Positions 24,930 through 63,100 of a stretch of DNA of 64,000 bases are shown one piece after another. How positions within the stretch are numbered: position 1 is the stretch's first letter; each line of letters opens with the position of its first letter. The stretch lies in assembly GCA_914767715.1 (NCBI GenBank), contig OU612071.1, positions 25,293,681 to 25,357,680 of the forward strand, given 5' to 3'. This DNA comes from Membranipora membranacea. Its lineage: Eukaryota; Bryozoa; Gymnolaemata; Cheilostomatida; Membraniporidae. The position numbers and the translations under genes are program-made. The notes under the pieces are model-generated. The model made no database searches. It was given only the letters and a program-made list of their open reading frames with translations, and was not told the origin of the DNA.

Positions 24930-24979
24930 GTTAGTTTTTAATGCATTTAAGATATCGAAAGAATAAGCGCTATGTTTGA

Positions 24980-28560: not shown

Positions 28561-28629
28561 ACAGGCCGATGTTTGAAAAAAATCAATCCTACTAAGCTAA
28601 AAACAGTACAACCAGATAAGTTGCTATAA

Positions 28630-35840: not shown

Positions 35841-35927
35841 ACACACACACGCAACACACACACGCAACACACACACGCGTACACACGCACACATGCACAC
35901 ACATACTTCAAACATACATACATACAA
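35841..35927. repeat. AC-rich microsatellite, copy B
   Basis: (ACACACGC)n-type repeats followed by CATACATA. Partner of 2,321-2,415 with a different internal structure. Confidence 0.8.
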
Positions 35928-36998: not shown

Positions 36999-38178
36999 GA
37001 TGGATGGATGGATGGATGGATGGATTTTATTACTATCACTGACAGCATTATTAAAAGAAAAAAATGAGTCGCGAAATACAGTGTAATTGCTGGCACTTTG
37101 AATCAGCAAGAAAAAGCGAAGACACTTGGAATAAAAAATCAAATCTCTGTCTAAAAAAGTATTTCGTTTAAAATAAGAGTGATATGACGCAGAAAACAGT
37201 CTCTCCCCAGTGAGCTTCTATGTTTTACTGTACGGTATCTGCCAGATGGACATTTACTCAACAAATCATTGATGAAATGATCCTCATCGTGAATATAGCG
37301 TAAGGCCAGTGTTCGTGTCTGATTGTCCATCATGGTATAAATATCGGGATGTTCAATGCCTAACTTAATAGCGTCCTTGAAAATTTTACACAGGCGTTGC
37401 TTGTCAGCAGCATACAAGCTTTTAAAAATAATGGGTAAGCAATAGGAGATTCGTGATACAATAAAACTTTTAAAAAGCATATTTGATAGTGATTTAGAGC
37501 TTAAAAATACAAAATTCCTGACTACATACATCCTTTGAGAGGCGGTTGAAACTATACCATGCACATGATCATTAAAACGCAGCTTATCGTCAACTAATAC
37601 ACCAAGATATTTAACTTTATCACTAAAAGCAATAGCAGTATCGTTTAAAACAAGTGTAGGGGTAGAAGGTTTAACATATTGGGTGGATAGCATCATTTCC
37701 TGGGTCTTAGTAGGGTTTAATAAAAGATTTAAATCAGCACATTGTTTAGCAATTCTATGGATTTCATCAAAATAGGAGTTGAGATCTGATTGATTAGCTA
37801 TGCAGCCTATGATGCAAGTGTCATCTGCGTACTTAATTATTGTAACATTACTCAGGTTTGAGGTAATCCGGTTTGTATATATGGAGAACAAAAGGGGAGA
37901 CAGACAGCAGCCCTGGGGGGTGCCGGTGTTCGTTATAATAGCATTTGAAGTTTTACCATCAACAACAGTTCTTTGCACTCTGTTAGATAAGAAGCTGTAG
38001 ATCCACTCAGTGACATTGGAGTCAAGATGAGTAAGCTGCGAGATAAGATCAGGAACATGTATAGTGTTAAAGGCCGATGAAAAGTCTAAGAAGAGACATC
38101 TAGCATAGTGTGAAGCCTTCTGGTCAATAAAGCTGGTGACGGTCGAAGTTAGACAGAGCAGGGCATCTTGTGTAGACC
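36999..38178 (-). mobile_element. 5'-truncated LINE, copy B only
   Basis: Minus-strand element ending in a (TCCA)n-type tail (plus strand GATG repeats 36,995-37,025). GATG borders both ends (36,995-36,998 and 38,179-38,182) and occurs once at the empty site in copy A (3,474-3,477). The 5' end is cut off within the RT domain. The coding part is uninterrupted, so the insertion is recent and postdates the duplication. Confidence 0.9.
37151..38178 (-). CDS. Reverse transcriptase, C-terminal part (CR1/L2/jockey-like)
   Basis: An open frame of 357 codons can be drawn to 38,224, but its first 14 or so residues come from flanking DNA; element sequence starts at about HRSTQDAL. RT motifs in order: CLFLDFSSAFNTI (catalytic Asp, motif A), GTPQGCCLSPLLF (motif B), KYADDT (catalytic YADD, motif C), LNPTKTQEMM (motif D), VKYLGVLVDDKL (motif E), then the thumb and C-terminal region to the stop at 37,151. 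Endonuclease and N-terminal RT are missing, so it cannot mobilise itself. The host DNA copy would not be expected to be expressed. Confidence 0.9.
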
Positions 38179-38202
38179 GATGACTTTCTAAGAATAAAAA
38201 AC

Positions 38203-38335
38203 AATAGATGCATATATCAAACAAACTACACTGGCTGGTAGCAGATCAAGATCCTGAAACAGATTGTAAACAGATCACCACCATGTACAAAATTGTAAAC
38301 ATCTTTTCATCACCATGTCACAGAGATTAAGCTTT
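38203..38335 (+). mobile_element. LINE RT C-terminal-like remnant, copy B
   Basis: Counterpart of 3,499-3,640, now adjoining the younger LINE insertion. It retains KLHWLVADQDPE and TMYKIVNIF. Confidence 0.35.
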
Positions 38336-40840: not shown

Positions 40841-40897
40841 TCTCACCTGATGATTCTTAGCTCCTAGCGCCGACTTCAGCGTCGTGACTTCAGGGTG
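40841..40897 (-). other. 57-bp CpG-rich gain, present only in copy B
   Basis: CAGGGTG occurs at 40,834-40,840 and again at 40,891-40,897; copy A has it once and lacks the 50 bases between. On the minus strand the segment ends in a good donor (CATCAG|GTGAGA) and is open in one frame (VTTLKSALGAKNHQ). With the 5,986-6,110 segment of copy A, it is one of two exon-like pieces present in only one copy within 200 bases. Confidence 0.4.
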
Positions 40898-41240
40898 ATA
40901 ATTATTCTAGTAGAATATAAGAATAAATCAACATTTGTAGACAGTCCAGTTCTGTATGGGGCAATAGCCAGTTTAAAAAAACAAAATCATAGTGGAGGGC
41001 TCGATGGTTAAGCCCATGTTGCAGTGTAAGACATAATATAGATACTCAGTCTGATCCACACACGGGTGTTGAACAACATGTCTTACTGCACTCACTAGAA
41101 CAATGGATTTTTTACGATATAGGCTGTATAACAATGCTGTGTTGTATTTAAGGACAATGTTGTAGAGGCCCTGTCTTACAACACCCCTCGCCAGCGAAGG
41201 TTATTAGTGCCCGTTCAATAAACATTTATGCCATTCTGAT

Positions 41241-41366
41241 AGTACTGGTTTTTCTTACAACCTATCAGGGGGTCTGAGGAAGTCACTGTGTCTGGCAGTT
41301 TGTTCCACTCCTTGGCAGTCTCGATATAGAACAAACGCTGGCTGAACGTACAAATGCCCAACAGCT
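41241..41366 (-). mobile_element. LINE RT C-terminal remnant, copy B
   Basis: Counterpart of 6,610-6,735; the KEWNKLPDT block is unchanged. Confidence 0.5.
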
Positions 41367-44063
41367 TTGCTCTCAGGTGCTACTGGAGGGGCTGCAAACA
41401 GACCTTTGTTACAATGGTCACGGCAATCACTTTTTAACCCATTGCGCTTGTAGTGTGTAGGATATATCAGTCCTGTCAGCCCACTATAACTCTAACTATA
41501 TGATATTCTGTTAGAACTCTGACATACAGAAGCTCTAACTAGTAAGCTTTCACTACTTGCTGTTATTATTAAACTTATGATTACAGCTGATTCATCATGG
41601 CTGAAGCCTTAGATTTCAGGCATCCTGATCAGCCATCATTGGAGAGCTCACTACACGCCCCTTCTGGCTCTGAACTGGAGAGCTTTATAGATGATCTCAA
41701 TCCTAACCAGGTGAGCCTGACTGAAGTCATTCAATCACATTTCAGATTTAATCCAGGTCGTTACAGATTAATTGTAAAAAAACTTTATTCTGCAATGTCT
41801 CAATTCCATGGGTAAATTATTACGCATGCTTATATCCTCATATAGTATTTGATGTTATTAGTAGGTCTACAACAGATAGTATAATATAATGTCATGTGTA
41901 CCACAGATAGTATATGATTTTATAAGTAGGCCTACCACAGAAAGTCTGTGATATTACGAGTACCGCAGATAGTATATTACGAGTACTGTAGGTAGGAGTC
42001 AAGATTTTAATCTGATTGTATTTTATAACAGATTGTTCACCACATACACAGACCTCGTCACTCACGTCTCAGACATCATCACAACACGTCTTCATCAGCT
42101 GCTTCTGTAGGTAACCGGAAACAGCTCTCTAATGGAGGAGGTAATAATAGTGGTAAGCTTAGTAAGAGATCTCAATCACTAGATATAGCAGCAGGTGGAG
42201 TACAGAGTACAGTTAATGTGGAGTCAGTACCCAGCGGTCATGTCTATAAACAGCTATTTGATGCTGGGGTAAGATTATGTCATATACCAATAGGCCTTAT
42301 ACTCTTTACAAACCTGGCATCATGAGTGTCTGTTGACCTTGAAGTTCACCGAAAACAGTTCAAAGATGTCCTAAATATGTTCTCAAATAAAACATAAATG
42401 AGGCCATTCTGGAGTAAATCTGAAAGTTAATTTTTCTTATACAGCCACCGATGGTCTCTACAGTTAAAGTTTCTACTACAGTCAAGGTCTGTATTCTTGA
42501 TTATCTCGTTGTTCATAAAATTTTAATAACAGGTACAGCTGAGGAAAGGATATGATGTATCTAAATCAGTACGAGATGAGAAAGGTGGACCTAAGATTAA
42601 AACTAGATTCGGTGGAGTACCATTAGTACACATGACACGCGATCCAGTGAAGGAGGGGACAGGTATACTGGGCCCCCGACAACAGGAGTGGCTCTCAGGC
42701 TTTCCTAATGAAAGCTCAATAGAGAATCCAGTTCTCTACAAGTAAGAACTTTATACTGAGATCTGAAACTCTTTGATTTATAGTGAAGGTTGTATAGAGA
42801 CCTGCCGAAGTCTATTGTTGTGTTTTAGCCAGTTGATGATAAGTGCACCACTGTCGGTAGGGGAGAGGGAGGCGACATACACCTCAAGAAAAATATCATC
42901 ATAGCCTTGTAATCAATTAGAGAATGTCATCTTTTCTTACCTTACAATTATAGAGATCATCAAGCTTATAATCACAGAGAGATTCAAGTTTTTGATATGT
43001 TACTTTCAGATATGAGCAGGAGTTTAGATCTTCTGTAGACGTGGAATCAGAATCTGACTCGGCTCTTAAAGAAGTCAGAGATCTGCCAGATGTTGTCGGT
43101 ATGTATATGTCTGGTCTGCATTATATGTGTACATCTACTTGGTAAATGTACAGCATAACGGGTGAATTTATCTACCAACGGGTTGTTCAGTTCCCTCAAT
43201 GATGTAAATGACGTATACATATATACAGCCGAATATAAAATAATTGTCCAGTTTTGTGCTTATCTTGCTGGGTCCCTACTGATCACATGACGTGCGAAAT
43301 GATATATGATTATAGTGAGTAAGAAGACAGGATCTAATGTGATAGAGAAGATAGCGAGGAGTAGAGAGGAGAGACATGAATCTGCTCTAGATGAGATGCA
43401 TCAGGAGTTACTTCTCATATCTTCTGTAAGTTTATAATATTATATCCTTTCCCAGCAGTGGACGATGTAATTCTGAAAACTCTGATATGTGTATGATAAA
43501 TTAAATAGGTGGTAGAGACAATGCTGAGTTTGATTTTGCACTCTGAATTGTGGATAACGCTATCAATACGCCTATATAAGGGATGATGAGACCAAACTAT
43601 CCAATTAGCCAACCTGCCTTTCACTGCCAGACGACTAGTGTCATTTTATTAGTGCATCTTTTATTTTTCTAGCATCATTTTTTATTTATAACATTATTAT
43701 TGTAGGAGTTGGAGCCTCGAGTTGAGAAAGCTGGATATAATCTTATGGAGAAGTTAGAGGAGAGTAATTCTGAGATCTCACAGCTTGTTAATGAGATAGA
43801 GGATAACGAGGTAACTCCTCCCTCTCCCCCCCCCTACTCCTCCCCCCTCCCCTCCACTGGGAGATAATAATGGTGCAACCTCGTTATCCCATAAATACTG
43901 AAATATAGAGCTTAGTATGATTTAACTCTATCAAATCTTACCCTAACAAATCCTCCCAAGACGATTCAAACTCAAATTGAACACAAATATAGAGTATAAA
44001 TTCGAGTTATTTGGAAGGGTAAAGGTCAATTCATTGGGTTTTTCACTAACTGATCTCATTTTC

Positions 44064-44136
44064 ATTTCTGTGGCCTAATGGACAAGGCGTCTGACTTCGA
44101 ATCAGAAGATTGTGGGTTCGAGTCCCATCAGGGTCA
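44064..44136 (+). tRNA. tRNA-Arg(TCG), copy B
   Basis: Base-for-base the same as 9,432-9,504, including the two mismatched acceptor pairs. It sits in the corresponding CCDC180 intron. Confidence 0.7.
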
Positions 44137-44868
44137 GTGGTTTTGTAATCACCAGTCTCTATCGGATAGGCCTACTATTATAAAATTACACAAGTTACTA
44201 GTTATTAGTGAATATAGTCTGTTAGCTGACCATCTGCTCCTATCTGAGGTTTGACTCAAACAAGATCTACAAGAGATACAGAGGGATCAAAACTGTCTTT
44301 GAAAGTTACTATAGCCTTAGTTCTTCACTTTAAATCTGTGACTTCGGGGTAGAGAGAGATGGCTCGTCATATTGTTATTACCTGTTTGTAGAAGCTACTG
44401 TCTCATACACAGACAGAGTTACAGACGACCTGGTCTGATATACAACAGAAATCATCACAGAGACGTCTCTATATAAATAATACAACTCAGATGTTAAATA
44501 CTATAGAGGATGAGAGAACTAACAGGGTATGACATCACTTCCAGTCTGTCTCAGACTCCCAGTCTGAACAGCATGGTATCAATAGTCTCATCATATTTTT
44601 GGATCAAAATCAAGCATCATATCTGGTATTACAATGCTATCTTGTCAAATCTCTCCTGAAATGGCCTCTCATCTGATACAAGATGAAGAATATACATTAT
44701 TGTTGACCTATCGGTTTCTGTCACTGCATTGGGTTTTAAAGTGCTTGTAAAGGACCAGATTTTTTGGTATCATTCTAGAGATCTCAGTATAGTTTAGAAC
44801 ATTATTCTATGTTCAAAAGCAGCCTGTGGCCCAGTCAAGACTTATTTGCCCTCAAAGTTGGGATGAGA

Positions 44869-44941
44869 AGGTACTAAAAAGGTACTATGTTTTCCTTTGG
44901 AGTTGTGATCACTTGTTGAAAATAGTACCTTTTTAGTACCT
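44869..44941. repeat. 20-bp perfect inverted repeat, copy B
   Basis: Counterpart of 10,237-10,309; both arms unchanged. Confidence 0.85.
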
Positions 44942-47900
44942 CAGATTATAATGGGAATATACAGTACTTTGTAACTAAGGGGTATTGTTATGACACAGTG
45001 GTTTTGATATTCTGCATGTGATATCAAAACACACAGAATTTATCTATTGAATGAATGAGTGAATACAAGGCATTATTTATCTGTCCCATGTGGTTTAGCT
45101 GGTAAAATGGGATAGTGTATGACATTTCATAATTCAATGACAAAGCTAACGATCTAAATCAAACATGGCAAAAAATTACAGCTCTAGCTCATCCGACAGT
45201 GAGAATGAAAATTACAGGGAGATTAACAGCTCTAGTGAGAGCAAGATTGAATATCATTTAGGAGGCATTTGTAGCAAATCGACGTCGAGTCCATGTGATT
45301 ATCAGAGGGAAAATATCTCTGAGGTAGTAACACCACCCAAGTTTAAATCTGTATGATTTCGGCCACTGGAAATAACCCACAGTGCTTTGGCAGATACAAC
45401 ATTTTCTGTTTACCATGGTTACTGCTCGAGATAGAAATTGGCAATATAAAGGCAGATCAATACATCGCTAAGTATTTCAAGGCTTTGTTTACATTAATAT
45501 GATGAATAAATGAGATTGTGGCTATGACATTCCAATCAAACTCCGTCTTCAGTCCCCCATGAAAACCAGTGATATGCTTCAATTATTAGCTTCATGAATA
45601 GCGGCTTTCAATAGAATTTCAATGGACGATACAAAATTTACACAGGTAGATTGTGTGTTTTTCTTGAAAATATGTATTTCCAAATCGCACAGAAATCTTA
45701 AATAAATTCTTTGTAAATCTCGACATTTCAGGCATTAGGATGATGTTGAAATCCAAAGCATGCCATGATTAGTACTGAGTGATTTGAGGTTTTGACAATC
45801 TTTTCAACAATTTTTGCAAATATTCTGATGTTTAAACACTCAAGGTTTTTTTGGATAAACTGTGTCATTTACATTGTTTAAAAACTAGAAATTACAAGTC
45901 ACCAAGTAAATTCAACTCAATAAATTTGTCATCTAGTTGTTTCGGACTTCAGGGTGATGTAAAATGTAAATGAATTTGACTGCCTCCTAAAGAGAAGTAT
46001 TGATAATCGTGTTAACAGTGGGATACCTTGAGAAACTTTCTATTTTTTCATTAAATCTTGTCCATCTGTGTGCATCACAGATACTCAGCACATCTTAACA
46101 TAGACTATCAATATTACTGACTGAGTGAAGCAGGTCTTATGAGAGCACATGTCACTGCACACAACAGTCACTTAGGAAATTAATCTGTCGAGTTTTTGAG
46201 TTATTTCGTCAGTATGGAACTGATTTGGGAGGCTAGTGTTGGGTAAATTGCAAGATTTGGTACAAACTATAAAGCATTGCATGGGCCATGTTTGGGTGAA
46301 TCTGAAATAAGCAAGGCTTTGTCAGCAGGAAGAATCAATTGCTCCATTATAATCTTATTTTAACAGAGCAAACAAGCGCATCGGTCTGAAATGAAAATCA
46401 CTCATTTTCATGCTTGAAAAACAGCCAACAGGGAATGCGTCAAAGCAATGAAGAGGGAGTTCATTGGTCAAAGTCATAGTCGTTGATTGTAATGTACAGT
46501 GGTTCTTCTAATCTTTTCTTCGACATGGGCTCATAACAGATATAAAGGTTGTTTTGATTAGCGGTCTCAACTCATCAAATAGTGTGTATACAAATTATAG
46601 AACTTTCTTTTGAACTTTTATGTCATCAGACAGACTTGTGAGTGACTTTGTCATTTATTTGCAAAAGTTGTTATCTAACCACGATAGTCACTAATATTAC
46701 AGTATTTCCCCAATAACAGGCTCATCACAAATCGCCTGGACTAGTTGGGCGGTGCATGAGTAGGCAACTCAATGTTGTTAACTTATATCCCCCAAACCTA
46801 CCAGACCAAATAACTCTGATGACTAATTTTATATGCAAATGCATGTGTGATAGCTGTCTTAATCTGATTTCAAGCTCAAAAATGATACCAAGAAACCTGT
46901 TCCTTTACAAACACTTTAAAAAAAGTCAACTAATTTTCTCCCTATCTGAGATGTATTACTTTAACCTCTGGCTATGAAAATTTACAATATTATGTTATTT
47001 GTCAGGGAAATTTGAGAGTACACCACAACCTTACTGGTTTGTTTACTTCTGTTTATAGGTCACTGTAGTACTGAGTAAGTACACAGATATTCTGAAGTCG
47101 ATCGCTCACGCTGCAAAACCCGACCTTGATAAGGTTATAGACAAGGAATCACAGCTTCTTAATAAGACTATACTGAGTAACAGAAGATGTTACTGTGAGC
47201 TCAATATGAGATTATTATCAGCTGATATAGAGAGGGAGAGAAAGATGCATGACCTATATAACCTCAAAAATAAAGAATGGAAAAAATTCAAGGTAAGTTA
47301 CAAAAGACAACTTAGGGATGAGAAAACCAAGTCGGTGATGACTTCAATATCCTATCATCCACCACCTGTACGCGCTATTTCAGGCCAAGATTTATGAGTT
47401 GAGGGGAGGAATGTAGTTTCATTGACAGATTTGCCTGAAGCTGTCCTCTTTTCATGAACTTACTTCAAGGAGTGGGCAACTTCTAATATGATAACTAAAA
47501 TCATGTTTTGAATTTCTATTTGACTCCAGTCTAGAAGTAGATGTAGATAATTAATTATTCATGTTATTATATTTTAGGTAGCGGAGGCTCTGAAGTCATT
47601 TGAGGATTTCATGACACAGAAATGTATCACAAATCCAACCTCAGTAACTGATGTGATCAGGAATATGGTGGAGGATCAGAAACGAGTACAACAGAAAAGG
47701 ATCGAACTACTCGATACAATCAAGTAAGTCCCAATATTCATACATGGAGTTTTATGTCACTTGAATAGTTTGGAATATTAGATAGTCCTAGAACTCTCAT
47801 TATCCCGTTCATAAAATTCCCCTACTAAAACCCAAAGCTTATACTATTCTATGGAAGAATGAGGAATGCTTGAACTGATGCTGTCACGCAAGGAAATGCG

Positions 47901-49947
47901 CGCTCATTGAATTCTGTCTACGTTGCTTTTATCTCAGAATATTCACCTAATTGTAAAACTCAGGGTATGAAATCAATAAAATTGGTGAAACAGTGGCATT
48001 TTCACCATGTTACTAGTTAAAACTGATGACATTATCACTTAGCCATTTATTTCACCATCTGATTTCATTAGTTTCTGTAAATTACTCCCCCTTTAGGTAA
48101 CAAAGCTGAGAATAAGGGCAGATTATGTTATACCGAAATAAGTTGTAAATGGGGATATTCACGATTCTAGTGGCAATATATGGTAGGGTCAATCGGCTGT
48201 TCTACCTCATCACCATCTCAGCTTTGTTAATTTTCTGTTACAGAGAGTTCAGACCCCCGACAGCCACTAAGAAGTCAGTCTATACTTGGAACGATCAGAT
48301 TGAGGAGTTGTCTTCTCTTCTGAGTGAAGTGAATCAGAGATACATGCAGCAGGTATATGAGGAATATGAGAAAGTCTGTGAGAAATGTGCTAACAAGGCT
48401 ACACAACTCAGGGTATGTATATGTCTAGTTTACATATCTCAACCCTTTGTTCCACAGGGTGTCCTTCAGTCATCAATCTGTAGCTTCATGGCCTACCACC
48501 TAAAATCTATACCCATCTATGCCTGACAATCTGTACTCTGCTAATTTGATGGATGAATGGTTGCCCATAGCTATATCAGGGAAATTCAGACATGCTGGGT
48601 GTCCTTGCTATATATGATGTCTTCAACAGAGTCAGCACAGTGATATTGTACAAAGGGGTTAACTCTGGTTTATGAGTATGTCAACTTATTCTTCGCCACC
48701 TATTCTAAGTGCTAGCTTACGATGTACATATTCGAGTTATCTAAGTTTGAGACTGTTTTATATGTGCATAGAGTTATCTTTTGTTCAGACTGAGTTGATT
48801 AAGTCCGGCGCTGTGTTACCCCAGGAAGCCGATCAGTTAGTAAATGATACTCTTATACCGATGATCGGAAGTCAGCAGAAGATTTACGAGGCTAATATGG
48901 AACAGATTGACGTAAGTCTGTAGTTTCAGTATTGAGTTTATATATTATCTGCCCTTAGTGTGGAAGGTATATCATAAAATGGCTTTTAATGTAGTATTAT
49001 ATATTAGTGTAGTGTAGGATAGTATTTATAGTAATCTAAAGAATAATGTTTTTGATTCTTTGTCTCATAGACTTTGATATTTAGTCTTGGTACTCCTTTT
49101 ACATATCACATCTCAAGCATTGATCATGTAGGGTAGTTCTAGCTTTCTTCTCCCTCGACTAAAGATTCAGTGAGCCTGAATAATATCAGAGTCTCACATC
49201 AGCCTCACCAGGTCTTAATGCTGATTGTTTACAGAGAGAGATAGAGAAGCAGGGTAATCAGATAACAGAACAACTTCAGCTTCTATTTAAGTATTGTCAG
49301 GGAGCTGCTCATATCTGGGATGTTCATGAGGTACGTATTATACTAGAGTTACCAAGAAATATGAAATACTGTCTGAAAACAGTTTGATGAGGGACCCTGA
49401 AGATCTCATCATTCCCAAGGAAGTTCCCTAATACTGGCATGGCGTGATGGGTCTTTCTATTAAAAACAGCCAAAATCACAATCTGACCACTCACTCACTG
49501 AGTGATTGAGACCTGCTAGTGTCTTGCTCAGAAATCGCTCACCCATGGATTGAACTATATACATTATGAGTGAGCGATCTTGGAAGGAATTTGTCGAATT
49601 GAAACACCAAGTGAGCGTTAATTTTGAGCGATGATACGGTGATGATTTGCTATAGTAAAGCATCGATCTTTCTAATTAAAAGTCCCCCCTGGCTGTTGTT
49701 TATAAAACTTATGAGACACAATTTTCTCATTTACAGATTGGATTAGCTCAGACAGAAAGAGCTTTACAGGAAAAGTTACTGCTGGCCAGACGAGATCACG
49801 ACCTTGAGAATCAGGATAGAGAGAATCAGCTCGATATAATCATGGATAAGATGAGGCAAGACGCTAACGAGATCAACCTCTCTAAAAACCTCAAAAAAGT
49901 AATGAAAACTTTTATTGTGAAATACAAGAATAGTACTCGGTCTTCTA

Positions 49948-50096
49948 AACTGCGTAATACACAGCATAATACAATACGTATCACATAACATAGTACCCGG
50001 CGTGAGGGATTGCATAATTCACAGTGATGTACCAAGCGTACACATGCATACACCGCGTAATGCACTGCGTGATACAAAGCGTGATACACTGTGTCT
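49948..50096. repeat. 12-bp minisatellite, left array, copy B
   Basis: Counterpart of 15,316-15,464 with the same number of units, so the array has not expanded or shrunk since duplication. Confidence 0.8.
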
Positions 50097-50677
50097 AAAG
50101 CTTCCACTAATTCTTGCAAATGAAATTTCGTACGAATCTCAGCCTGCCACACATGATTGTAATTTCCCAAATTCGTTCTAATGATTTATGGGTGTAATCC
50201 TCCCCAGCCAATCTAAACCATAGGCCTACAGTGATAACTAAAAAATTGAACCAAGGAGAAGCTGTTTCATCTTGTTTATTATACCAACCAGTCCAGTGAT
50301 TCAGCTTCTGGATATGCTTAGGCTCAACTATCTCCTCATATTCATTCAATTTTATACCCCATTAGTCATTGTAACCCTTCTCCCTCTTGCTCCAGGTCCA
50401 AAATAATGAGAAGATCCACATATTGATCATTCATTCCATCTTTTTGTCTAAAGTTGTTTACAAGATATGGCCTTGACTTATCAATAAAAACAGTCAGCCA
50501 ATCAATCAAATCTGACAGCCAATCAGATAACATGTCGTGAAAATTTTTACGATTTGGATTCGTGAATCGTTAACATACAATGTTTCACGATATCGTGGGA
50601 ATCCCGTTTCGTACTAATGTTTTCGTGAAAATTTATACGAATCGTGAGAAAACAACCCCCGTGTGGCCTGAGCTTGA

Positions 50678-50785
50678 CACTGTGTTATACAATGTGTAAT
50701 GAGCAGCGCAATACACTGTGTTACGCACTGTGTCATACACTATGTTGCACACTGTGTTTAACACAGCGTAATACACAGCGGGATA
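50678..50785. repeat. 12-bp minisatellite, right array, copy B
   Basis: Counterpart of 16,046-16,153; a few point changes in the first units (GTAATGAGCAG for GTAATGCACAG). Confidence 0.8.
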
Positions 50786-52388
50786 CTTTACAGGATTAGT
50801 ATCATTTATTGTTAATTTTCTCAACAGCCTGATTGCCTCATGGCATAGTGAACATGTTTTTGTCATCTCATTTATGTAGCTCGGAGTATGAATCCTCTTG
50901 TTATGTCATGTAAGTATGTTATCTTGACGTCACGACATGACGTTGTGTATATTATACAGGTTAAAGACAGTCTTGATCAGATAGGAGTTATGTATGAGAG
51001 ATTTCACAGAGATCAGATATCTGTAGTTCAGACTTATCCCTACATGGTTAGAGAAGAGATAGAAGACTTTGATCTCGCTATCAGAAGCTACTTTAGTGTG
51101 GATAGAGAGATGCCAGATAATCAACAGGTATAGCAACTCATGCAACCCAACATTTGGCCTTATTTCAACGATGATATATTTATTAATCTATTTTCCTCAG
51201 TGTTGAAGTTGCCCCCTCCCATCTTCATCCAGCACACAACTCTTCCTGGTCTCTGAGTTATATAACCTCTTTGTTCTTTCATCAAATCTCAGGCTTATGA
51301 AAACTGTCTATCAGTTTTAAGTAAAAATTGAGCCTCCTACCATATCTGACTCTGATCGCCACCCTGATACTCCTGATAATCTCCAATCTGTGCCCAACTC
51401 ACATACTCCCTCGTCGAAACATTCCACTGATGTCTATCAATTGCTTTGACGAGTATTCGTCATAATGAACTATGCCACTTCACTGATATGTTAATTTCTG
51501 CTGACCAGCTGGAAGACTTGGAGGAGATTTTCTCACCTCTCACAGGCGAGCAGAAGGTTGAATGGACAAAGAAGATACAGTCACTACTCCATGTAAATCT
51601 TATATCTAATCCATACTAATCTCCACCAAATCACTCTCATCTCCATACATTCAATCAACTCGGATCAATCAGAATGTGATGAAAGTTCAGACTCACCTAT
51701 TTTGAAATGAGTGTCCAGACCATCTTTTGGCTGAGTGTTTTGCTAAATGATCACTTTACTGCAGTGCCTGGTTATCTCCCCTGGTACCTTATATTCCACT
51801 AGTTCCTGTCTGCTCTCACACATACACACATTTCCTTGTGTTCATCTCTAAGCAAACTGAGTTCTCCCTCATCTATTAATCGGTAAATTTAGCTGAAGGA
51901 CCTAAGCTGTAAGTTAGTGAGGAAGAGGGCTAACCAGTACAAATGAAGGAGTCCCAGCCCCGTTTCACCGAGTAATAAGACTGCAGCTACGTTCTCTCCC
52001 AGACTTCTCTCACTCATTCAGAATCTTCCTGTACGTTTCTATCTATCACTGCTTTATCTCTCTACATACACAACCCTGTACACATAAAATTTCAATTGGT
52101 TTTAATTCGTATATCACGCCTACAGCTCCATACTTATCACATTTAAAATTGTGATGCGGCACAAAAAACCGATAGATTGGTGGCATCAGACAACCCCCCA
52201 CTCAAGTATACAACCCTCACATTCATAGTTAGTCACCATTATGTAATTCTAGCTGAACAAGGAGGCACGGAAATTCATTCAGTAACAATAGGGCTTGATA
52301 CAAACTGAGATCTCAGAAAACTCAAATTTTTTAATGCACCCCTCGATGCAGCACTTTACCTGGTATATGCTTTATTATAATTCCCCCT

Positions 52389-52458
52389 CTGCTGACTTTG
52401 TAGCCTGCTGACTTTGTAACCTGCTGACTTTGTAACCTGCTGACTTTCCTGCTGACAG
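52389..52458 (+). repeat. 16-bp CTGAC repeat at splice acceptor, copy B
   Basis: Counterpart of 17,786-17,855, with the same unit number and one base changed in the first unit. Confidence 0.8.
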
Positions 52459-52989
52459 GCCCGGATATATATGACTGGTAAAGCTGATCTACAGATGAAG
52501 GATGTGATATCTCGTATGGTTACTCATAATCCTAACTCCTGGCCTCATACCATCAATCTACTTGTAACTATTACCTCTTCTATCTCTCACTGTAATGTAT
52601 CTATATTGTTCCCACACTGACATGTAGAGTACACTATTAACATGTATATCTCTGATCTCTACATTGAATACCTACCATGTTCCCACCCGTAATTAATTTT
52701 ACACCAAATTCCTTCTGATGGTACTCACGCTAAGTGAATTAGTTCACTCTCTATCCATCGGAGATATACATGCAGTAGTATATCACTTCATCAGTGTGTA
52801 TACTACCTTATACCTCATGTCTACATCATACAATCAGAGCATTCATCCTCATACTTGAGTCCTCCTAACAGCCCATAATGCTCTGTAGTCAGAAAATGAC
52901 TCCATTCATCTATTTTCTGTACTTTCCATCTGATTATCAGTCCTCACCTCATAGTGTCATCATTCAGTCATATAATACGCCGCTGTTAG

Positions 52990-53022
52990 TCTGACCAAGG
53001 AGTCTCTAACTCCTTGGTCAGA
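52990..53022. repeat. Short perfect hairpin, copy B
   Basis: Unchanged counterpart of 18,403-18,435. Confidence 0.85.
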
Positions 53023-54216
53023 TCAATCCTCTTATTCAGAGTACTCTACATTTGTGCAAAGAAGCCACTGTACATCATACCATTACATCCTGACAGGAAT
53101 TATGTTGTCCCTCAGTATTGAAAGGAGTTTCTTATTATAGCAAGATTCTGGCTTTTAAACCCTAGCATGACAACAGCATTTTGCTCAGTTATTTTAGGTT
53201 GCTTGTGCCATCAAGTTGGACATCAGATGAATAAAGTCACCTTTATAATATAGCTTGTCATGTATTTTTTTATGTTTTGATGGGATGACAATAGATCTGT
53301 GATTGACAATCGACGCCTTAGCTGTAGAATGTAAAGTGAGACATAGGGGTGTTGATGTTGTCCTACATGATAATATTTTAGACAGTTTCCCACAATGCAT
53401 CTCTCTAATCAACTCACTCTTACAGATGATAATCGGACAGAAGCAGAAGTCTGGATACCCGATAGATGAGGAGTTAGCCAGTCTACAGCTGACCTCAAGC
53501 TCTCGTACAGCGAGTCGTGTCGTCTCGAGCAGCCTCTCGAGCTGAAGGGGCTACTAGTGCTGCTAGTAATAAAACTCGTGATGTCACCGCAACTGAGCCA
53601 CCAGCTGCTCCCTCATTAGTGTGAGTATTATAAGCGCTGTACAGTTAGTTACTCACTTTCTGTTGTTTTATCTCGAGTAGAATATAACCATAGACATAAT
53701 ATTTACATTGAATTACCATTAAGTCTATGACAATAAGACAAGGTGTATTATTATCGTACTATATGATTTATCAGAATAGAGGTTGTCAGAGGCCTCGGAA
53801 TGCAAGCATGCTGTTCATACTCTTTTTCAAGAAGGGGACTGATTTGTGGGTTATTGTGATACCCTACCTTGGTGTTAATTGGAGGCAAACTTAAAGTCAA
53901 TGTGTGATATACATACTTAGTTGTTGTCTTACTCAGGCCTATTTCAAATCAACTAATCCTTGATTATTATGGATGGATTAGAACTAATTTAACCAAGAAA
54001 GAGAATAACCTAGCCTTTGATACAAACCTCAGATCAGGTTTGATAATAATATTGAGATATAAGAGTTGTCTCACATGTTTGTATGTGTGTATATCTGTAG
54101 GACATCATTATCTAAAGCTCCAGCCTCTCCCAAACCATCACAGACCTGAGGACTGAATGACTAAGACTAGATCTGTTCTCGGCGATATGGTGAGTACAGT
54201 ATTATAATCACCCATA

Positions 54217-54287
54217 GCCTGTCCTGACAAGCTTTGTTGTGCGTGGGTTCCCCCTCCCCCCCCAAAAAAAAGCTTGCCAAGACAGGC
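54217..54287. repeat. Imperfect hairpin, copy B
   Basis: Counterpart of 19,630-19,699 with one more C in the loop. Confidence 0.7.
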
Positions 54288-55497
54288 GAACTCTCCCGCT
54301 ATAACCTAACCAACTATCTCGGGATGCTCCCTTCTATTATCTATTCATCTGGTAATCAGGTATTGTCTGACCTAAGAATTCTGCGAGAGACTCAGGGTCA
54401 CAGGGTAGCTCAGACATTAGGGCTTATCATCATTATCATGTCATCATCAGGCCTAAACTGACACCTGACCTTAACCTCAACAAGACTAAGCGATAGGTCT
54501 ACTAATTCATTTATAATTTAAAATCTATATCTGCCATCTTCCGTAACATTGACTGATTTAGCTCATCCTATTTACTCCTCATAACTGATGATACAATTAT
54601 CTTTACGACGACACAATGATTCTAGAATTCCCTCACATTATATTGATATGTTCATCTTGAGCTGAGCTGGTAGAAAAAGGAATGCATCACATAGAGTCTC
54701 ATTACATGGTAGTCATGTATCTGCTGGAGAAATGTGCAAAATAATAAATACAAAAGTATCATCATGACCACAAAAACCTGGTAAATTGAGAAGTTGGAAT
54801 GTTTCAAGACAAAAAAATGATCATAGGAATCCAAATATGCAATGGTTTGAGCTGAAATGCACTCTGGAACTTGTGAGCTTTAAGAGTTTGTTACGAAGGT
54901 ATTTAATGGGGTTATTTATTTATATTATTATTATGTATAACACATCACATTACGGTATGTGACGTGTTATATAAAACTTCAGAGAATTTCTTACCTCGTG
55001 ACAATCTAATGTACATAATTCTTCTGGGCATGCCCGAAACCAAACATAGTGACTGAATACATCCAATACAACCTGCTCATATTTGTACATCTTCTTTTTT
55101 TTGATTTCGTGAGAAAGGTATATTAATGCGAACGATGTACTCTCAGTGCTTTGGAATGTGAGAATGTTTCGCAATAACTACGATCCAGGACAAATTGACT
55201 AGGATAAGACATGACATCAATTCTACAATTAGATCTTCAAATGACAGGACAATCTCTCCATCAGTATTGGAGACACCACAAATGGTTTCGAGGTTTCGAG
55301 GTTCAACCCCAACACATTCCATCAACTAAATTTTACCAGGCTGTAATCCGTTGCTAATCATAAGATTTAAAGTGTGCCAGAACAATATGAACCACAATTA
55401 GCGATTAATGCTAGGTTGTGGGGGCCCACAATCAAACCAAACCATAGATCTAGATTTAATTTTACTTTAAATAAAGTAAATTTTTGGGAAAAAGGTA

Positions 55498-55558
55498 GCC
55501 CGGACAGCTCAGTCAGTAGAGCATCAGAGGGTCCAGGGTTTGAGTCCCGGTTCGGACG
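55498..55558 (+). pseudogene. tRNA-Lys relic lacking the anticodon arm, copy B
   Basis: Identical to 20,910-20,970, so the 12-base loss predates the duplication. Confidence 0.75.
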
Positions 55559-55884
55559 GTGGCTTAATTTTAATCAAGTACCCATGAGAACTATGAAATT
55601 GGAAAGTGGAAAACAGTGGAAAGGAGTCAGAGGAGTGTAAAGGTTAATGGTGCAGGACCTGTAAAAATCCAATCACTAGTAGTAATTAAATTTAGTACAT
55701 GCATGCCTCTCATCCTAACCAGGCCTTTGCAGAACAGGAATAAAAATACTGGAGGTCCACTTTGGGTCTGCCACATATAGTAGAACGCTGCTTCTTCGAT
55801 TATGGGTTAAAGTATGGCACAGGACTGTTTATCATTGGTCCCAGCACCTTTACTATACTGCTATGAAGACACAGGAAAGTTTAG

Positions 55885-56199
55885 GCTGGCTATGACCCTA
55901 AATGGGTTGAAGGATGGCTCTGGTGCAAAAAGAGATCCACAACTCTTGTCAGAGTTTTGAATGAGGATTTTCATCGCATCATGAATATTATAGAACAAAT
56001 ACAGAACAATATTGCAGTTGAGTTCAGGGACTGTCCATGCCCAACCCCTAACTTTGATAACCCTCATGTGGTGCACAATGATGTTGGTACTGGTGGTAAC
56101 CATGTTACAAAATGTGAGACTATCAGGCTGTACGCAAAGACACTTGCGAAATCCTGGCCCGATGATGTTGTAAAACTATATTTTTTCTTACCTCAATGA
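55885..56199 (+). CDS. Possible exon or gene fragment, unknown, copy B
   Basis: Counterpart of 21,297-21,611. One residue near the end differs (Tyr for Phe). No family recognised. Confidence 0.25.
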   Translation, partial: AGYDPKWVEGWLWCKKRSTTLVRVLNEDFHRIMNIIEQIQNNIAVEFRDCPCPTPNFDNPHVVHNDVGTGGNHVTKCETIRLYAKTLAKSWPDDVVKLYFFLPQ

Positions 56200-56462
56200 T
56201 TAACAAGATAGCTGGGGGTTCCCCTATAGGAGGGGGCGACTAATACGCCATTTCCTGGTTAACCCCCAATAAGTTAGAATTAAACATTTTAGTAAGTACA
56301 GTAAGTTGCTGGAGAACAGCATGGGCAGGGCAAGAACTTTATAGGAGGAAATTCGGCCTTGATACTTTAGAAAAGGCAGAAAATTTAGCACCAACTACAC
56401 ATGCACCCAAGTTAACATTCACACACTGAGAAATATAATAACATAAGGTAGTATTTTGGGGC

Positions 56463-56506
56463 GGGAGATGTAGTACAAAATAACAGCCTCAAACGAAGTC
56501 TTCAAG
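56463..56506. repeat. SINE-tail fragment, copy B
   Basis: Counterpart of 21,875-21,918. Confidence 0.6.
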
Positions 56507-58349
56507 TATCATATTATCATTGTTAGCTACAGGTGTGTTAGCTACTATACCTTGGATGTCATTTGGTACACTTGTTATACTATCTGATTGTACCATAAGA
56601 TATCTGTGGAACCAGATTCAGTAACACCACCTTTCCCTTCTCTCCTTAGTCTGACTACATCTTGGAAGGTAATGTTTTTATAAACTATGATTAGACGGAG
56701 AACAGTGTAGGCTGGACTCACAAGCAGGGTAGATTGATTTTTATTAAATAGATAGTTTACACTAAAAGTTAATACAGCAATGTGTTTACATTATTATGAT
56801 AATGAACTCTAGTTGGTCACAGCCTCATCTTTAACCTGATCAAAGTAGAATACAATTTAATCCTGCGGAGCAGTCAATCAAGCTCCCTAACTGTGTACTG
56901 GTTCTCAGTCAATCTAAGATTCAGGCAAATTCAAGCAGGCAAATATGTGCCAACTCACCCATGTGTCGTTTCTGCAGGTTGATACTCGATTAATCAATCT
57001 CCAGCTCATACCTAATTGAAACACCCCCATATCATATCTTGGCAATCATAGAAAGGAAGTTGGTTTGAAATCTCAAACTCAGCTTACTAAATAGTTGCAC
57101 ACATTGACAGACATCAATGTGATTAATAAGCTGTGTCCATGTCTGTTTAATTATGGGATATCAATGAACTATTTACAGCTAGGCTATCAGTGTACATGAC
57201 AATTCATATCTGTCCAATAAATAAAGTACAAAACACGATCAACAGCAGTCTGCTTCAGCAAAGTAAGTAAGCAGTTGTCTTCATCATGCGGCTATTACAA
57301 ATTTAACCTCATAACTCATATACATCTCGTAATTCACTTTCAAATGTTCCGTTCATCTGCGGCTCTTCAACCATATTTTAATCCTCACATGCAAAATGGC
57401 AGGCATTCTAAATACCTAAATAGGCTTTCAATCCCAAAATACACGCAACCCCAAATGCTGAACATACCTCTCAATTTTGTTATTCTTTTTCAGAAGTTGT
57501 CACATGATGAGTAAAGAGGAGACAACTACTTTCAGGATTTTTTAGTTCACAGTTTTAGTTATCTTTAGTATATCTCAGTGGAAGATGCACGACGTAAATC
57601 TTCACAACCATATGATGTGCAACGTCGTGTCATGCTACATTTAATTTTCATGAGATCAATCACTGGTTTGCAGGCAACTGAATAATTTTGCTATTTTGTG
57701 TAGAATTGTTGTTTATAGAATGTCCTCACCAGTATTTCATAAGTTTAGATTTCATAAAACTCTGATCAGTGTTTTAAGTCTTCATCTCATACTGACTATT
57801 AGTGAAACACATACAGACTGTGAATTTATCTCCTCTGTGTGCAATGTGCAAACCTCAGCGTACCAGGTTTGCCATGATAGGATTGTTATTTTGTTCAACA
57901 CCAACATCAATATATAATTAAGACTAATTAAATGAATTTTGTTGTATTGTGCTGTTAAAATTACAAAAATGTAAAAGAAAGTATAAAAATGTAGTGAAAA
58001 TAGTAACCAATAGGTCAGAAGTCGCAAACCAAGTCAGGAAAAAGAATGTGTCTAAAAATTAGTAGTATTCAAACACAAAGGAGGAGTTTGTAATAATAAG
58101 TGTGAAATACTGATTATAATTATTTACATCTAAGTAAAATTTTCCCAAAAAGACAATCAAAAACATAAGATCAGAATAACTCAGAGGTTACAAGACAGAC
58201 TTCTTGTCACCTGAAGGCCTCGATGATAAACCATAAATTGTGATCGACAAACCAACACTAAAGTTTACAACACTTCTCAACTCGATTTTATACACAACGG
58301 ATCCCAACTACCTCGCTTGAAACATGAATACTACAATCAGAGAGCCTCA

Positions 58350-61300
58350 CTAACTCATTGTGAAGTGTTCAAACTCAATACCGACTTGTTTTATCAGACT
58401 GAGGGTGTCTCTTAGTGAGATCGCCTCTCGCTGGGCTCTCTGATAATCAAGAGAGAAAGCTTCATTATCAGTACTGAGATCATACATAAGGTCAGCTGCC
58501 TTCACTGCATGTTCTCCTGACTCTGAGAGACGAAGGAGACGAAACAGGAGCAGACCTATGGCTGTGTGGGTTTGGGCGAGGTGGAATCTGGTCTGTCTGT
58601 ATTGTGGGAACTCTTGAAAGACACAAAGCGCTTTGTGCAGATTTATCCAAGCTTTATCAAACTTATCAATCATCATCAGACTAAAACCCATCAGGTAACG
58701 ACAGATCCCAGATCGTGGTGGATATTTCCCTGCTGGCCTTGTAAATGCCAGGTATGATAACCTGCAAGCTGTCTTATGATCCTTCAATGCAATGCAGCAT
58801 TTACTTGAATCTGTCAGCAGGTCAACATAACTTTCACTGAGAACAAATCTCCTACATCTCGCAGCCTGTCTGAACGACTCTAGCGCCTCAGTATAACGTC
58901 CTGTCTTAGTATAGAGATGGCCTAGTGAGTCAAAGGCTAATGACCTAGCATGGTCTCTCATAGAGATAGCTACCTCATTTACTGTTTCGAATACATTGCT
59001 GATAATTTGTAAAGCCTTGTCATACTCTCCGAGCTCACAGTGAACTTGTACAAGACGATTGCGTGCTAACTGAATATCAGGGGTAAAAGTTTGACACGAG
59101 GTATACAAACAAAGTGCATGTGAATGATCCACCAATGATCTATGGTAATAACTCATACTATAAAGTATATCTGCATTGAGCCAAGAATGAAAAATCCTCC
59201 CAACGCTAAGAGATTCACTATCAGAGTGATGATGAAGCTGTTTAGACACTGCTAAATATTTATCATTGTATTGTAAAGATCTTCTATAATCACCAATTGT
59301 ATAATATATCTTTGCGCGAAACCGGTATATATACAATAGATCTGGATGTGCTGTGTGTCGGCCGTAAATGTTAATTAGGAGCCTCTCTGCATCATAAGAA
59401 TCATATAAAGCTTTCTCGTATTCCCCTAACTCATAGTGGAGAATACTCCTATTCTGCAGAGCCACATACAGATCAACATCAACATTTACGCCCATGTTAG
59501 TTTTTAATGCCTCTAAGATATCAAGATTAGAAGTTCTATGTTTGAGTGCCTGGTCATATAATTCCAGCCCTAGATATGATCCACTCCGGCAGCTATAATA
59601 TTCTGATATTTCAGAAGCTAAATGAGACACTCGATCATGATGTGTTTTGTCATGTTTAGTTTGTACCTCTTTCATTGCATAATCATACAGTGACAGTGAC
59701 TGTGTGTCAAATAGCTCCATCAGAGCAGGTTCAATCTTATCCAGGACCTCAAGGCTTTCTTTGTGATGATGAAGCTTCAAGAAACACAAGACTTGCTTCG
59801 ACTGCCAGGTTATAACTGATCTAATATTATCACATCGGATCAGAGTGTCAACATAATCTAAAGCCTCTCTGTATTTCTTACTTTCATATAGAATGGTGTA
59901 ACAAAGAACTAGTGCTCTCAACTCATATGCTCTAGGTTTTGTTATGTTGTTTATAAGAACATACTCTTCGATCATCTTCCTGAATCCATTACAATCTACC
60001 ACGTTTTCTTCTGTTAGAGCTTCAATCAGGACTCTTAAAGCTCTCTCATAAACAGACATAACACAGAAAACCTCGGCTTGTAACAGGAAATTTGATTGGA
60101 GCAGACTTACTGGTGATCTTTTATCTGGAAGACATTTAACGATGAATTTTCTCATATCAACATCATGTAAATCCTCTATCATAGACAGGCCTCTTACTAC
60201 TGATCTGTTGACTAACCATTTCAGGGACGTCAACAAACAACCGAACATGATGAAGATATTTCTGGGGATGTGATAGCGGTCACTCTCTGATTTCTGTGGG
60301 ATGTTGGGGAGAACAGACACACACTCGCACTGTGTCCCTGAAGTGATGTAGGCCTTTATCCTTATAAAGATGGCCAGCCCTAGTGTTATGTTCATCAATT
60401 GATATTGCTCTTTACTTATTACCCCTAATGATGATGTCATGATCTTGAACACCCCCCATGGATACGATTTTTCAACCTGAAGCAGGACTTTTAGATTTGA
60501 TGCGAGTAGAGTCGGATAACGGAACACGTCAGGTTTCATCTTTAAGTCGGATTTTTCATTGCCACGCTCAGATTTGGGCAGGAAAGGATAGTTTTTAATA
60601 TCCTCTAAGATAGTCCTCAACCTTTTCTGGATCACCGACACGCTTTTCATTTGCTCTTCCTCAAAGTTTCGCCTTCGCTCTAGAAAGCTTTTGTAAAGAG
60701 CTTCCCCACCATTGTGCGCAAATATTAACACTGTGCTCGAAAGTAAATCTGCAAGATCTCCGACCTTATTAGGGTCAACAGGTGATCTCAAGGCCGACTT
60801 GTAGCTTTTCATTAATTGATCAACTGTTAATATGAGTTTCTCACTACCAGGGTAACCATTACCTGTAGGTATATTACCAGCCTTCTTTGTAATCCCATCA
60901 ATTCTAATACCGCTAACTTTGGGCTGGTCAATATCCTTTACATCTTCACTTTTTAACTCGGCAATGTCAAAACGCTTCATCTCAGTCTCCCCTAGATTGT
61001 TTATACGGAAATATGTGTCCATAGCTAACCAAGTGAAGTAATCTGTCTCAGTTGAGTCTACTATGAAAGCATATTCCATGTCTGAGTAAGGGGTGGCTTC
61101 ACCTCGAGCTACGGAACCGAGACCGAGAACAGCAAACGTGAAGGGAGGAGACAACCCAAATTTACTCAAAACCTCAACACTACTACCAACGATTGACGAG
61201 AAAACATCAATAATACCCTCAGTACACTCAACACTCGCATCAAATACAGAGTCTACTAACTGTTCAGCTTTTTGTATGTTATAGATACTAAAGACATCAT

Positions 61301-61862
61301 CCAGACTGAGAGCCTCCTGGAGCGAATCTAGACTGTCCACTTGTTGTCTGATGTTGTTACGGTATGACGTCACCTTATATTTGTGTTTACTGATAAGATT
61401 CTGATGCTCAATGAAGGATAGCGGATGATTTCCTTTATACCAGGTATTCTCTATGTCATACACTCTCCTTAGTCTTCTGTCTGTAGGCTCTAGTTGAGCT
61501 ACACATCCACTGGCCAAACCGTGAGCCTATATAGGATAAATTATAAGCATAAGTAAAACATTTTCAATGCTGTGAGGACAGCCTGATTAGTCCCAAAGCC
61601 AGGTTAAAAAAACTGGGAGAACACAACTTCAGGTCAACTTGAGTAAATTTGAAAATTTGTTCATAAAAAGATGACGCCTGTTGTACATGCAGCCCTGTCC
61701 GTCCAATCCTTATCAAAAGGTTTGCCCAATTTTTTGCTAGATAAGAGCTTTTACCTTGAGGCAAGTTATCCAGTTACTTTCATCCTTTGTTTCCAGATTA
61801 TTTCTCTCAGCCTCATATTGATAATGAGCTGCTAAAAGATCCAGTCCCCAAAAATCATCCAT
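58350..61862 (-). CDS. Nucleotidyltransferase-TPR protein, copy B, intact
   Basis: Exon 1 61,755-61,862 (ATG start, 36 codons beginning MDDFWGLDLL), intron 61,527-61,754 (GT-AG, phase 0), exon 2 58,350-61,526; predicted 1,094 aa. An acceptor (CTGATTTCAG) lies just before the ATG, so a 5' UTR exon is likely further upstream. Residues about 171-188 read GLGSVARGEATPYSDMEY, the hGS...DxE signature of GlnD/DUF294-type nucleotidyltransferases (Ser174, Asp185, Glu187); Asp246 in IRIDG could be the third metal ligand, so the site looks catalytic. A helical middle follows, then from about 700 a TPR array: LHYELGEYEKALYDSYDA, YYTIGDYRRSLQYNDKYL, LGEYDKALQII, LGHLYTKTGRYTEALESF, IDKFDKAWINLHKAL. No signal peptide or membrane segment, so cytosolic. 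Substrate unknown. NTases joined to repeat scaffolds occur in predicted innate-immune proteins; a defence role here is inference. Confidence 0.85.
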
Positions 61863-62429
61863 CCTGAAATCAGAGTAAAAGTACAAACAGTGAATCTTCT
61901 CTCATGACTGAACGCAAATCAGCTACCAGAAGGCTGTAGCGTATTGCGCTGACTCATATCCTCTACAGGACTGTACTTTTAGATATAATAGTACACAAAT
62001 TAACCACTTTATGACTGCTATCCAGACCATATGTCTGTTCGCCAGGTTTAGAAGTCACATCGAAAACTACATCGCGTAAGTAGTTTTGAAACATGTGTCT
62101 AACTTGGAGTTATGCTTTCACAGTTCTATTATGGGAGTGTCAAAGATGGGATTATAATTGCTAGGACCTGCAAAGTCAACAAACCATTATCAATTATGTA
62201 CAAGTTATGTGGAATAAGAATATGGAATATGCCGACGACTGAAATTGATAGCTAAAGATAATTGAGCAAATTATGAACAAGTAATAAACAGGAAAGTGGT
62301 ATGGTGCTGCACATGTGTGAGATACTAAATACAAGGATTGATGAAACTCAGTTACTATCATGGTCCATAAATTTCCTATAGCCTATGACTACATGTAATA
62401 TTAAATATAATATATATAAATAATAACAT

Positions 62430-63100
62430 TCAGACGTAGCAGACAGACGTAACATCTTAAACATGAATGGCTATCGGTGCAACCAGCACTTCCAGCTCTA
62501 TCAACATGACAACGATTACAAAAACGCATATAGTACTACCCTGACAACCACTTATAGCCAACTGTGCCTCGACTGCGTCGGCAGCTTGGCCACCGTTGGG
62601 CGCGTTGGCCAGACACACCACCACATCATTCAACTCTGGCTTCCAACAGCATGCTTAAAAGAGCGTCCACTGCCCAACCAATTCAAGCGCTACAAAACAA
62701 TCGCCTGCCAAAATCTTCGGGCAAATCAAACTAAAACAATAAACTAGCTAAATGTAGACATCGGCCGATGTTCAATTAACCTTTCACCTCAGCTGGCCTG
62801 CATTGACGAGCGACTGACCTGCATGGCAGAAACATCTGGCCCAACCAACACGGAATTCTCACAGGTGTTTGCCTCACCTTTCCATTCGTTCCAGTATTCA
62901 TTTCAAAGCAATACACCAAGGACAAGTAGTATAAATTTTGAATGTCTAAGGACTACCCTTTGCCAGCTTGAAAAAAATCAATCCTACGCCCACACTGTGA
63001 AAAAATGGCATTACTTATTTTATTTTCCTACAAGCTGTGCAAGTAGTTATGCCAATACTCATGTTCATTCACAATTAAGTGATGATGATAATTTTTAATG
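62430..63100. other. GC-richer unknown segment, copy B
   Basis: Counterpart of 28,015-28,560, continuing past 62,987 into DNA with no partner in copy A. Two plus-strand frames (62,463-62,747 and 62,823-63,098, 94 and 91 codons) lack recognisable domains, and the first is interrupted in copy A. Upstream exons or promoter of the NTase-TPR gene could lie here. Confidence 0.35.

Follow-up and report, generated by a model that had tools for sequence, protein, structure and literature searches.

The 64,000-nucleotide window analysed here, positions 25,293,681-25,357,680 of chromosome 7 (C7) of the colonial bryozoan Membranipora membranacea (38.3% GC, zero Ns), carries two copies of a gene in which a nucleotidyltransferase (NTase) half is fused to a run of tetratricopeptide repeats (TPRs). 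One NTase-TPR gene lies on the minus strand at one end of each of two segmental duplication units, and beyond these units the flanks share no homology with each other within the window. The units and the organisation of copy B are listed below in window positions; w denotes the dN/dS ratio.

1421..28592, no strand assigned: segmental duplication unit A (self-comparison of the window)
34221..62987, no strand assigned: segmental duplication unit B (self-comparison of the window)
61755..61862, minus strand: copy B exon 1, 36 codons, ATG at 61862, an open frame and then a GT donor
61527..61754, minus strand: copy B intron 1, GT...AG, 228 bp, phase 0
58350..61526, minus strand: copy B exon 2, NTase and TPRs, a single intact exon of 1058 codons plus stop
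60162..61526, minus strand: residues 1-455, GlnE/DrrA-type adenylyltransferase fold and, C-terminal to it, a HEPN-like bundle (fold comparison)
61074..61118, minus strand: catalytic motif G137-X11-D149-X-E151, written GS...DxE (conservation)
60897..60899, minus strand: D210, candidate third carboxylate (conservation)
58767..60116, minus strand: residues 471-920, nine TPR-like helix pairs, the region of diversifying selection (profile, helices, site models)
58827..59876, minus strand: residues 551-900, hypervariable TPR core (w 1.40, 15 copies)
58353..58766, minus strand: residues 921-1058, conserved C-terminal helices (w 0.44)

The uninterrupted open reading frame of copy B (58350..61517) and the ATG of its 5' exon at 61862 lie where an initial annotation of this DNA had marked them, and the product of exon 1, joined to AHGLA..., resembles by eye the N-terminus of a relative from Bugula (P0006). 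The repeats were assigned from a TPR_12 profile match (1.6e-10) together with nine helix pairs, and fold comparison found an NTase fold with a subsequent helical HEPN-like domain. G137, S138, D149 and E151 are invariant in all 15 intact copies of the family described below and in a 25-sequence alignment; in a 35-sequence alignment E151 is no longer invariant, being kept in at least 90% of the sequences. D210 behaves likewise, invariant in 15/15 copies and in the 25-sequence alignment and at or above 90% in the larger one. A match to the DUF294 family (PF03445) at E<=0.01 was obtained for 32 of the 35 aligned sequences. Searched by sequence against solved structures, the NTase returned nothing significant (best E.37), the resemblance to DrrA and GlnE coming from fold comparison only.

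A search of the whole genome (18 contigs, 339,339,785 bases, with 28,508,536 in C7 and 29,963,023 in C5) with copy B recovered 20 copies that are 89-99% identical and lie on both strands of a 702-kb interval, C7:25,136,876-25,839,009. In 15 of them exon 2 is open throughout, at 1052-1066 codons, while two carry one in-frame stop (L011, L022) and three are broken (L026, L027, L028), copy A among the latter; these five were excluded from all family dN/dS estimates. The donor string of exon 1 was found in 15/15 intact copies and its start string in 14/15. At least 20 further relatives, diverged to 27-39% identity, are spread over six other chromosomes, a count that is a lower bound because 43 of 407 candidates were scored. 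Named relatives elsewhere are all bryozoan, from Watersipora subatra and Bugula neritina, and scans of prokaryote and viral contigs gave 25 and 17 pattern matches with zero confirmed relatives. That alleles or haplotypes were laid out in tandem by the assembly is scarcely credible for such an array. Curation did remove 17 haplotypic duplications according to the part of the genome report consulted, a sign that drafts did contain errors of this kind, but the same source describes a HiFi and Hi-C assembly treated with purge_dups (PMC10290214), and the 20 copies stand in both orientations at unequal spacing, with flanks beyond units A and B that are not homologous within the window.

The evidence on selection comes from this one assembly and the paralogues within it. 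Across the 15 intact copies, synonymous diversity is alike in the enzyme and TPR parts (piS.093 and.090), while nonsynonymous diversity differs (piN.033 vs.116). Strict four-fold degenerate sites differ at 8.1% in the NTase, 5.8% in the TPRs and 5.6% in the C-terminus. The resulting ratios are w.35 for NTase residues 1-470 (bootstrap 95% confidence interval.27-.47), 1.29 for residues 471-920 (1.02-1.67), 1.40 for residues 551-900 (1.09-1.85) and.44 for residues 921-1058 (.22-.93). The TPR value thus stays above 1 when the paralogues are included. Site models M1a and M2a were fitted to 14 sequences with our own unbenchmarked implementation, using scaled nucleotide-tree branch lengths, naive empirical Bayes posteriors and a tree fitted separately per codon block; L020 was dropped because its exon 2 is the same as that of L019. 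With blocks of about 110 codons, M2a was favoured over M1a by a likelihood-ratio test statistic (LRT) of 281 in the TPR part, where w was 6.5 in 17% of codons and 55 sites exceeded a posterior of.8, and by 19.6 in the NTase, with 7 such sites. Blocks of 45 codons absorb more recombination, and with them the LRT of the NTase control fell to 2.5 (p.29, 1 site), while that of the TPR part stayed at 171 (p 7e-38; 21% of codons at w 5.1; 58 sites). Recombination was therefore rejected as the source of the site-model signal. Purifying selection acts on the catalytic half, whose active-site residues are intact.

We then placed the selected sites on the repeats, whose register was fixed by the G15-x-Y17..A20 pattern and predicted helices. 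In the part of the TPR literature consulted, positions 2, 5, 9, 12 and 13, and also 33 and 34, form the concave ligand-contacting face (PMC1261162). Sites called with the ~110-codon trees fall at positions 2, 5, 9, 12 and 13 in 20/45 cases, against 22/261 in the rest of the repeats (Fisher 2e-8) and 6/63 at the core positions 4, 7, 8, 11, 20, 24 and 27; with the 45-codon trees the counts are 21/45, 21/261 and 3/63. Selected sites are thus not concentrated in buried positions, and scatter through such positions is what the initial annotation had named as a sign against selection on a surface, exposure being judged here from TPR register and helix assignment rather than computed accessibility. 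The true register ranks top among 35 register shifts, and helix A holds 36 selected sites in 169 residues, helix B 10/153 and the remainder 9/128. When positions 2, 5, 6, 9, 12 and 13 are pooled as the groove, w is 2.30 (1.38-4.65), compared with.81 (.46-1.57) for core TPR positions and 1.07 (.78-1.52) for the remaining repeat positions, and on minimal codon networks the groove codons took 128 amino-acid-changing steps and 15 silent ones. The TPR half is therefore under strong diversifying selection centred on the concave ligand-binding repeat positions, and the proposal of diversifying selection on a binding surface, made earlier from two copies, is borne out by the groove ratio and by the LRT of 171 in the TPRs beside 2.5 in the NTase. 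The pattern fits repeats R3-R7 better than R1, R2, R8 and R9. Between R7 and R8, at about residues 806-818 of copy B, lies a loop whose length varies among the 15 intact copies, by 9 residues between L018 and L019.

These figures also bear on a history lacking adaptive change, in which older paralogues with relaxed TPRs were homogenised around the gene and not within it. We consider it improbable. The silent sites of copies A and B are indeed raised as well (four-fold 23/158 and 10/94, vs 0.7% in the 3' flank), and w is close to 1 in repeats outside the groove; relaxation, however, caps w at 1, below even the lower bound of the groove estimate, and M1a, which permits relaxed sites, is beaten by M2a in the TPR part. 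Moreover, four-fold divergence over the 15 copies is no higher in the TPRs than in the NTase.

Copy A is broken: an element of 130 bp, absent from the initial annotation, splits its exon 2 after about codon 660. Its features are as follows.

27350..27457, minus strand: copy A exon 1 (alignment to copy B)
25102..27099, minus strand: 5' piece of copy A exon 2, 665 codons, its stop lying inside the inserted element
23763..24979, minus strand: 3' piece of copy A exon 2, the TPR end
24980..25109, no strand assigned: palindromic transposable element resembling a miniature inverted-repeat transposable element, 130 bp, with 60-bp perfect arms and a 10-nt loop
25110..25118, no strand assigned: first copy of the 9-bp target duplication, TCAAACATA on the minus strand, present once in copy B
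24971..24979, no strand assigned: second copy of the target duplication (alignment to copy B)

The element is repeated genome-wide, and 40 of 40 scored places (out of 429 candidates, copy A's included) match it near full length.

Copies A and B, the pair from which the idea of selection arose, differ at 33 of 114 residues in the first-TPR stretch, close to the roughly 31 of 122 counted by eye in the initial annotation, and the near-invariance it noted in the 400 bases past the stop codon is equally real, with 0 differences in the three 200-bp bins of 23200-23799 (stop at 23763) and 99.33% identity over 1,500 bp of 3' flank (9 mismatches, 1 gap). Its description of nearly identical surroundings holds on this 3' side only: across 1,503 columns of intron, exon 1 and 5' flank there are 57 mismatches (~4%), and at their left end the duplication units diverge by 8-22% per bin. 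A three-state segmentation assigns the TPR part (24349-25515) to one block of 13.9%, the 3' flank to 0.5% and the NTase to mixed values of 3.5-21%. Over 1057 aligned codons, the NTase half has dS.147, dN.049 and w.33, less different in protein than the TPR half and with the GS...DxE core retained, as had been stated, and the TPR half has dS.088, dN.114 and w 1.29. The impression that nearly every difference alters an amino acid is roughly right for the TPR half (~153 changing vs 33 silent), but some 78% of sites are nonsynonymous by default, and by maximum likelihood w in that half is 1.46 with p.066 against 1 (p.073 for residues 551-900). The same method puts the whole gene at.86 (p.33) and codon columns 1-440 at.38 (p 5e-5). 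In the groove 31 of 54 residues differ, and one more codon has a silent-only change.

Silent divergence between copies A and B (38 of 354 four-fold sites gene-wide; 23/158 in columns 1-440 and 10/94 in 551-900) exceeds that of the 3' flank (0.7%) more than 10-fold, so the contrast of gene and 3' flank does not reflect selection alone. Silent changes are also clustered along the exon (scan p.0006). As the pair's w is not significantly above 1, its silent changes are clustered and its divergence is block-wise, the pair cannot separate selection from conversion, and its use as proof of selection was rejected. The idea that selection acted on these two copies alone after their duplication is likewise very improbable. 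It would account for the differing first-TPR residues next to a stretch with zero differences just downstream, but it does not sit with silent divergence so far above the 3' flank, the interruption of copy A by the element, nearest copies to A in exon windows that are not B, and 18 more copies in the cluster.

Paralogues exchange tracts by gene conversion or a similar process. When the exon is cut into eight blocks, none accepts a tree built from any of the other seven (56/56 approximately unbiased tests at p<.05, uncorrected). Copy B and L010 are nearly one gene, differing at 30 codons, 23 with amino-acid-changing and 7 with silent differences; 27 of the 30 lie within residues 501-695 and 0 in the next 363 codons, and the whole-tract version of L009 or L010 occurs in no other intact copy, which leaves no candidate donor. 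L019 (C7:25835494) and L020 (C7:25618559) share an identical 3.16-kb exon 2 although they lie 217 kb apart on opposite strands in surroundings whose alignment has 738 differing columns, gaps included; their identity is a very recent conversion or duplication. Conversion from diverged paralogues, which the initial annotation had offered beside selection, is thus also at work. Mean pairwise divergence over the 15 copies is 3.2% in the intron, and the flanks have a median of 4.8% on both sides and means of 15.6% and 9.3%, raised above the medians by unrelated flanks in some copies (L013 was left out of the 5'-flank figure because its exon-1 start pattern was unmatched). The intron thus lies below, and the flanks near or slightly below, the four-fold divergence of the exon (5.6-8.1%), so that homogenised surroundings are clear on the 3' side of copies A and B and mild across the cluster.

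Two more NTase-TPR clusters were noticed, L029-L033 at C2:27.74-27.97 Mb and L034-L037 at C5:16.53-17.18 Mb. Seven of the 9 loci were compared in 7 pairs (L030 and L037 have frames broken up and stayed unpaired), and in these the NTase has w.14-.32. Several pairs combine a near-identical NTase with a TPR part that differs strongly even at silent sites, and this uneven silent divergence suggests exchange there too, positive selection not being shown.

The array is thus multi-copy, with w above 1 focused on a binding surface, as is asked of a recognition repertoire. Conservation of the enzyme beside diversification of the groove would keep the output constant while the bound partner changes, and tract exchange reshuffles combinations. 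We therefore favour, at a probability of roughly 55%, the reading that copies A and B belong to a 20-copy tandem array of diversifying ligand sensors, each joined to an enzyme that AMPylates proteins or carries out another nucleotidyl transfer. The paralogues would act inside the cell as recognition proteins, each holding its own short peptide or stretch of protein in the TPR groove, and occupancy of the groove would activate or aim a GlnE/DrrA-like nucleotidyl transfer, most likely protein AMPylation. The ligand would most likely be pathogen-derived, and the array may form a standing repertoire in which new specificities arise from point change plus conversion. Judged from the sequences, a role in pathogen recognition, which the initial annotation had suggested, or in allorecognition is probable.

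Several observations weigh against this interpretation. Positions 33 and 34 are not enriched for selected sites (0/9 and 2/9). The second catalytic acid is E, where DrrA has D in its G-X11-DXD motif, and PF03445 is missed narrowly, copy B scoring 19.3 bits (20.5 for the NTase alone) against a cut-off of 21; copy A, at 20.6 bits, is also below it. Conversion within blocks can inflate site models, a concern that is eased only in part by the counts made without trees and by the NTase control. The A-B pair in isolation would not have revealed selection. Lastly, 11 of the 14 TPR-part values in the C2 and C5 clusters are below 1, two being 1.01 and 1.80 and one undefined for zero silent change, so the selection signal is not family-wide.

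Two other functions would leave a similar trace. With the same anatomy, the repertoire might serve colony self/non-self recognition instead of pathogen sensing, which we regard as unlikely. The host is a colonial bryozoan, tandem, diversifying and converting arrays suit allorecognition equally well, and fungal TPR-bearing NOD-like receptors (NLRs) with positive selection on the concave side are discussed for non-self recognition in the part of that study consulted (PMC4986451). On the other side, inspection of the frame by eye, with no predictor, revealed no obvious signal peptide or membrane segment, and the titles and abstract openings of bryozoan allorecognition papers (best 8 of 152) name no molecular locus. 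Alternatively, the groove might pick the substrate for modification rather than sense a ligand, its changes tracking substrates such as foreign effectors. The TPRs of FICD, for instance, act in target choice. FICD is an unrelated AMPylase that likewise has TPRs, as the excerpt consulted describes (PMC12409994), and the sequence pattern expected of a sensor and of a substrate dock is the same; even so, we give the dock a small probability beside the ligand sensor.

Of known proteins, GlnE and the AMPylase domain of DrrA/SidM share the fold at 11-14% identity in the fold alignment and differ in the second acid (D vs E), whereas the bryozoan NTase is fused to TPRs and occurs in an animal. Fungal NLRs with TPR, ANK or WD repeats offer positively selected repeats, concave-side sites and suggested concerted evolution, in the portion of the study cited (PMC4986451), but within a chromosome-7 protein the repeats do not look near-identical to one another, and the output has an adenylyltransferase fold. 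NACHT and NB-ARC had no match at E<=1 in three window proteins and are absent from the 25 of 44 families listed for the 35 sequences; neither a Mab-21/OAS-type NTase, as in cGAS-like receptors, nor a Fic domain gave a Pfam match at E<=1 in the window proteins, the former also missing from the listed fold rows, which excludes nothing. We know of no diversifying array of FICD. That enzyme is an AMPylase with TPRs but an unrelated catalytic fold, and the human genome has a single Fic protein, as stated in the part of the source consulted (PMC12409994). Closest in architecture are Watersipora subatra and Bugula neritina proteins, "tetratricopeptide repeat protein 28-like" or uncharacterised, which have the same NTase-TPR arrangement and align with 72-87% of the query at 30-31% identity (39-41% in the NTase). 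The literature searched, which is mostly non-subscription, showed no study of their selection or clustering, and no paper on the family was among the matches listed.

Taken further, the array may represent a new animal receptor class, namely a germline cytosolic adenylyltransferase-TPR array whose groove is diversified by selection plus conversion, with ligand-triggered protein AMPylation or nucleotide-signal synthesis in the service of bryozoan pathogen sensing or of allorecognition between colonies. This proposal is tentative and, on sequence evidence, somewhat more apt to fail than to hold. Such a class was undescribed in the literature searched, and the matches listed for bryozoan gene families and allorecognition, seen in part, named no molecular receptor for pathogen sensing or allorecognition. 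The partner half resembles a bacterial protein-AMPylating enzyme and, to our knowledge, no animal immune output. Diversifying TPR grooves were shown in fungal NLRs, in the portion cited (PMC4986451), and the same signature now appears in an animal. If correct, the proposal would add a receptor class, link AMPylation to recognition and supply a concrete and testable locus for bryozoan immunity or allorecognition. A chromosome-level assembly, an alternate haplotype (GCA_914767555.1) and RNA-seq (ERR6464929) are publicly available, as given in the part of the genome report consulted (PMC10290214).

The segmental duplication contains a second gene, present in units A and B on the plus strand, with exons at 12427-16498 and 47059-51130 and a DUF4455 domain in four of the open reading frames tested; we take DUF4455 to be a domain of CCDC180. 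A reverse-transcriptase frame (RVT_1, 1e-25) occupies 36998-38245 of unit B, where unit A is uninterrupted (~3474-3477). Outside the NTase-TPR gene, a further stretch of unit A, 16229-18204, is more diverged (3-15%) than the near-identical duplicated sequence on either side of it. The spacer between the units is flanked by an inverted repeat (72%) at 29342-29557 and 33405-33622, made up by eye of FPT-rich short repeats.

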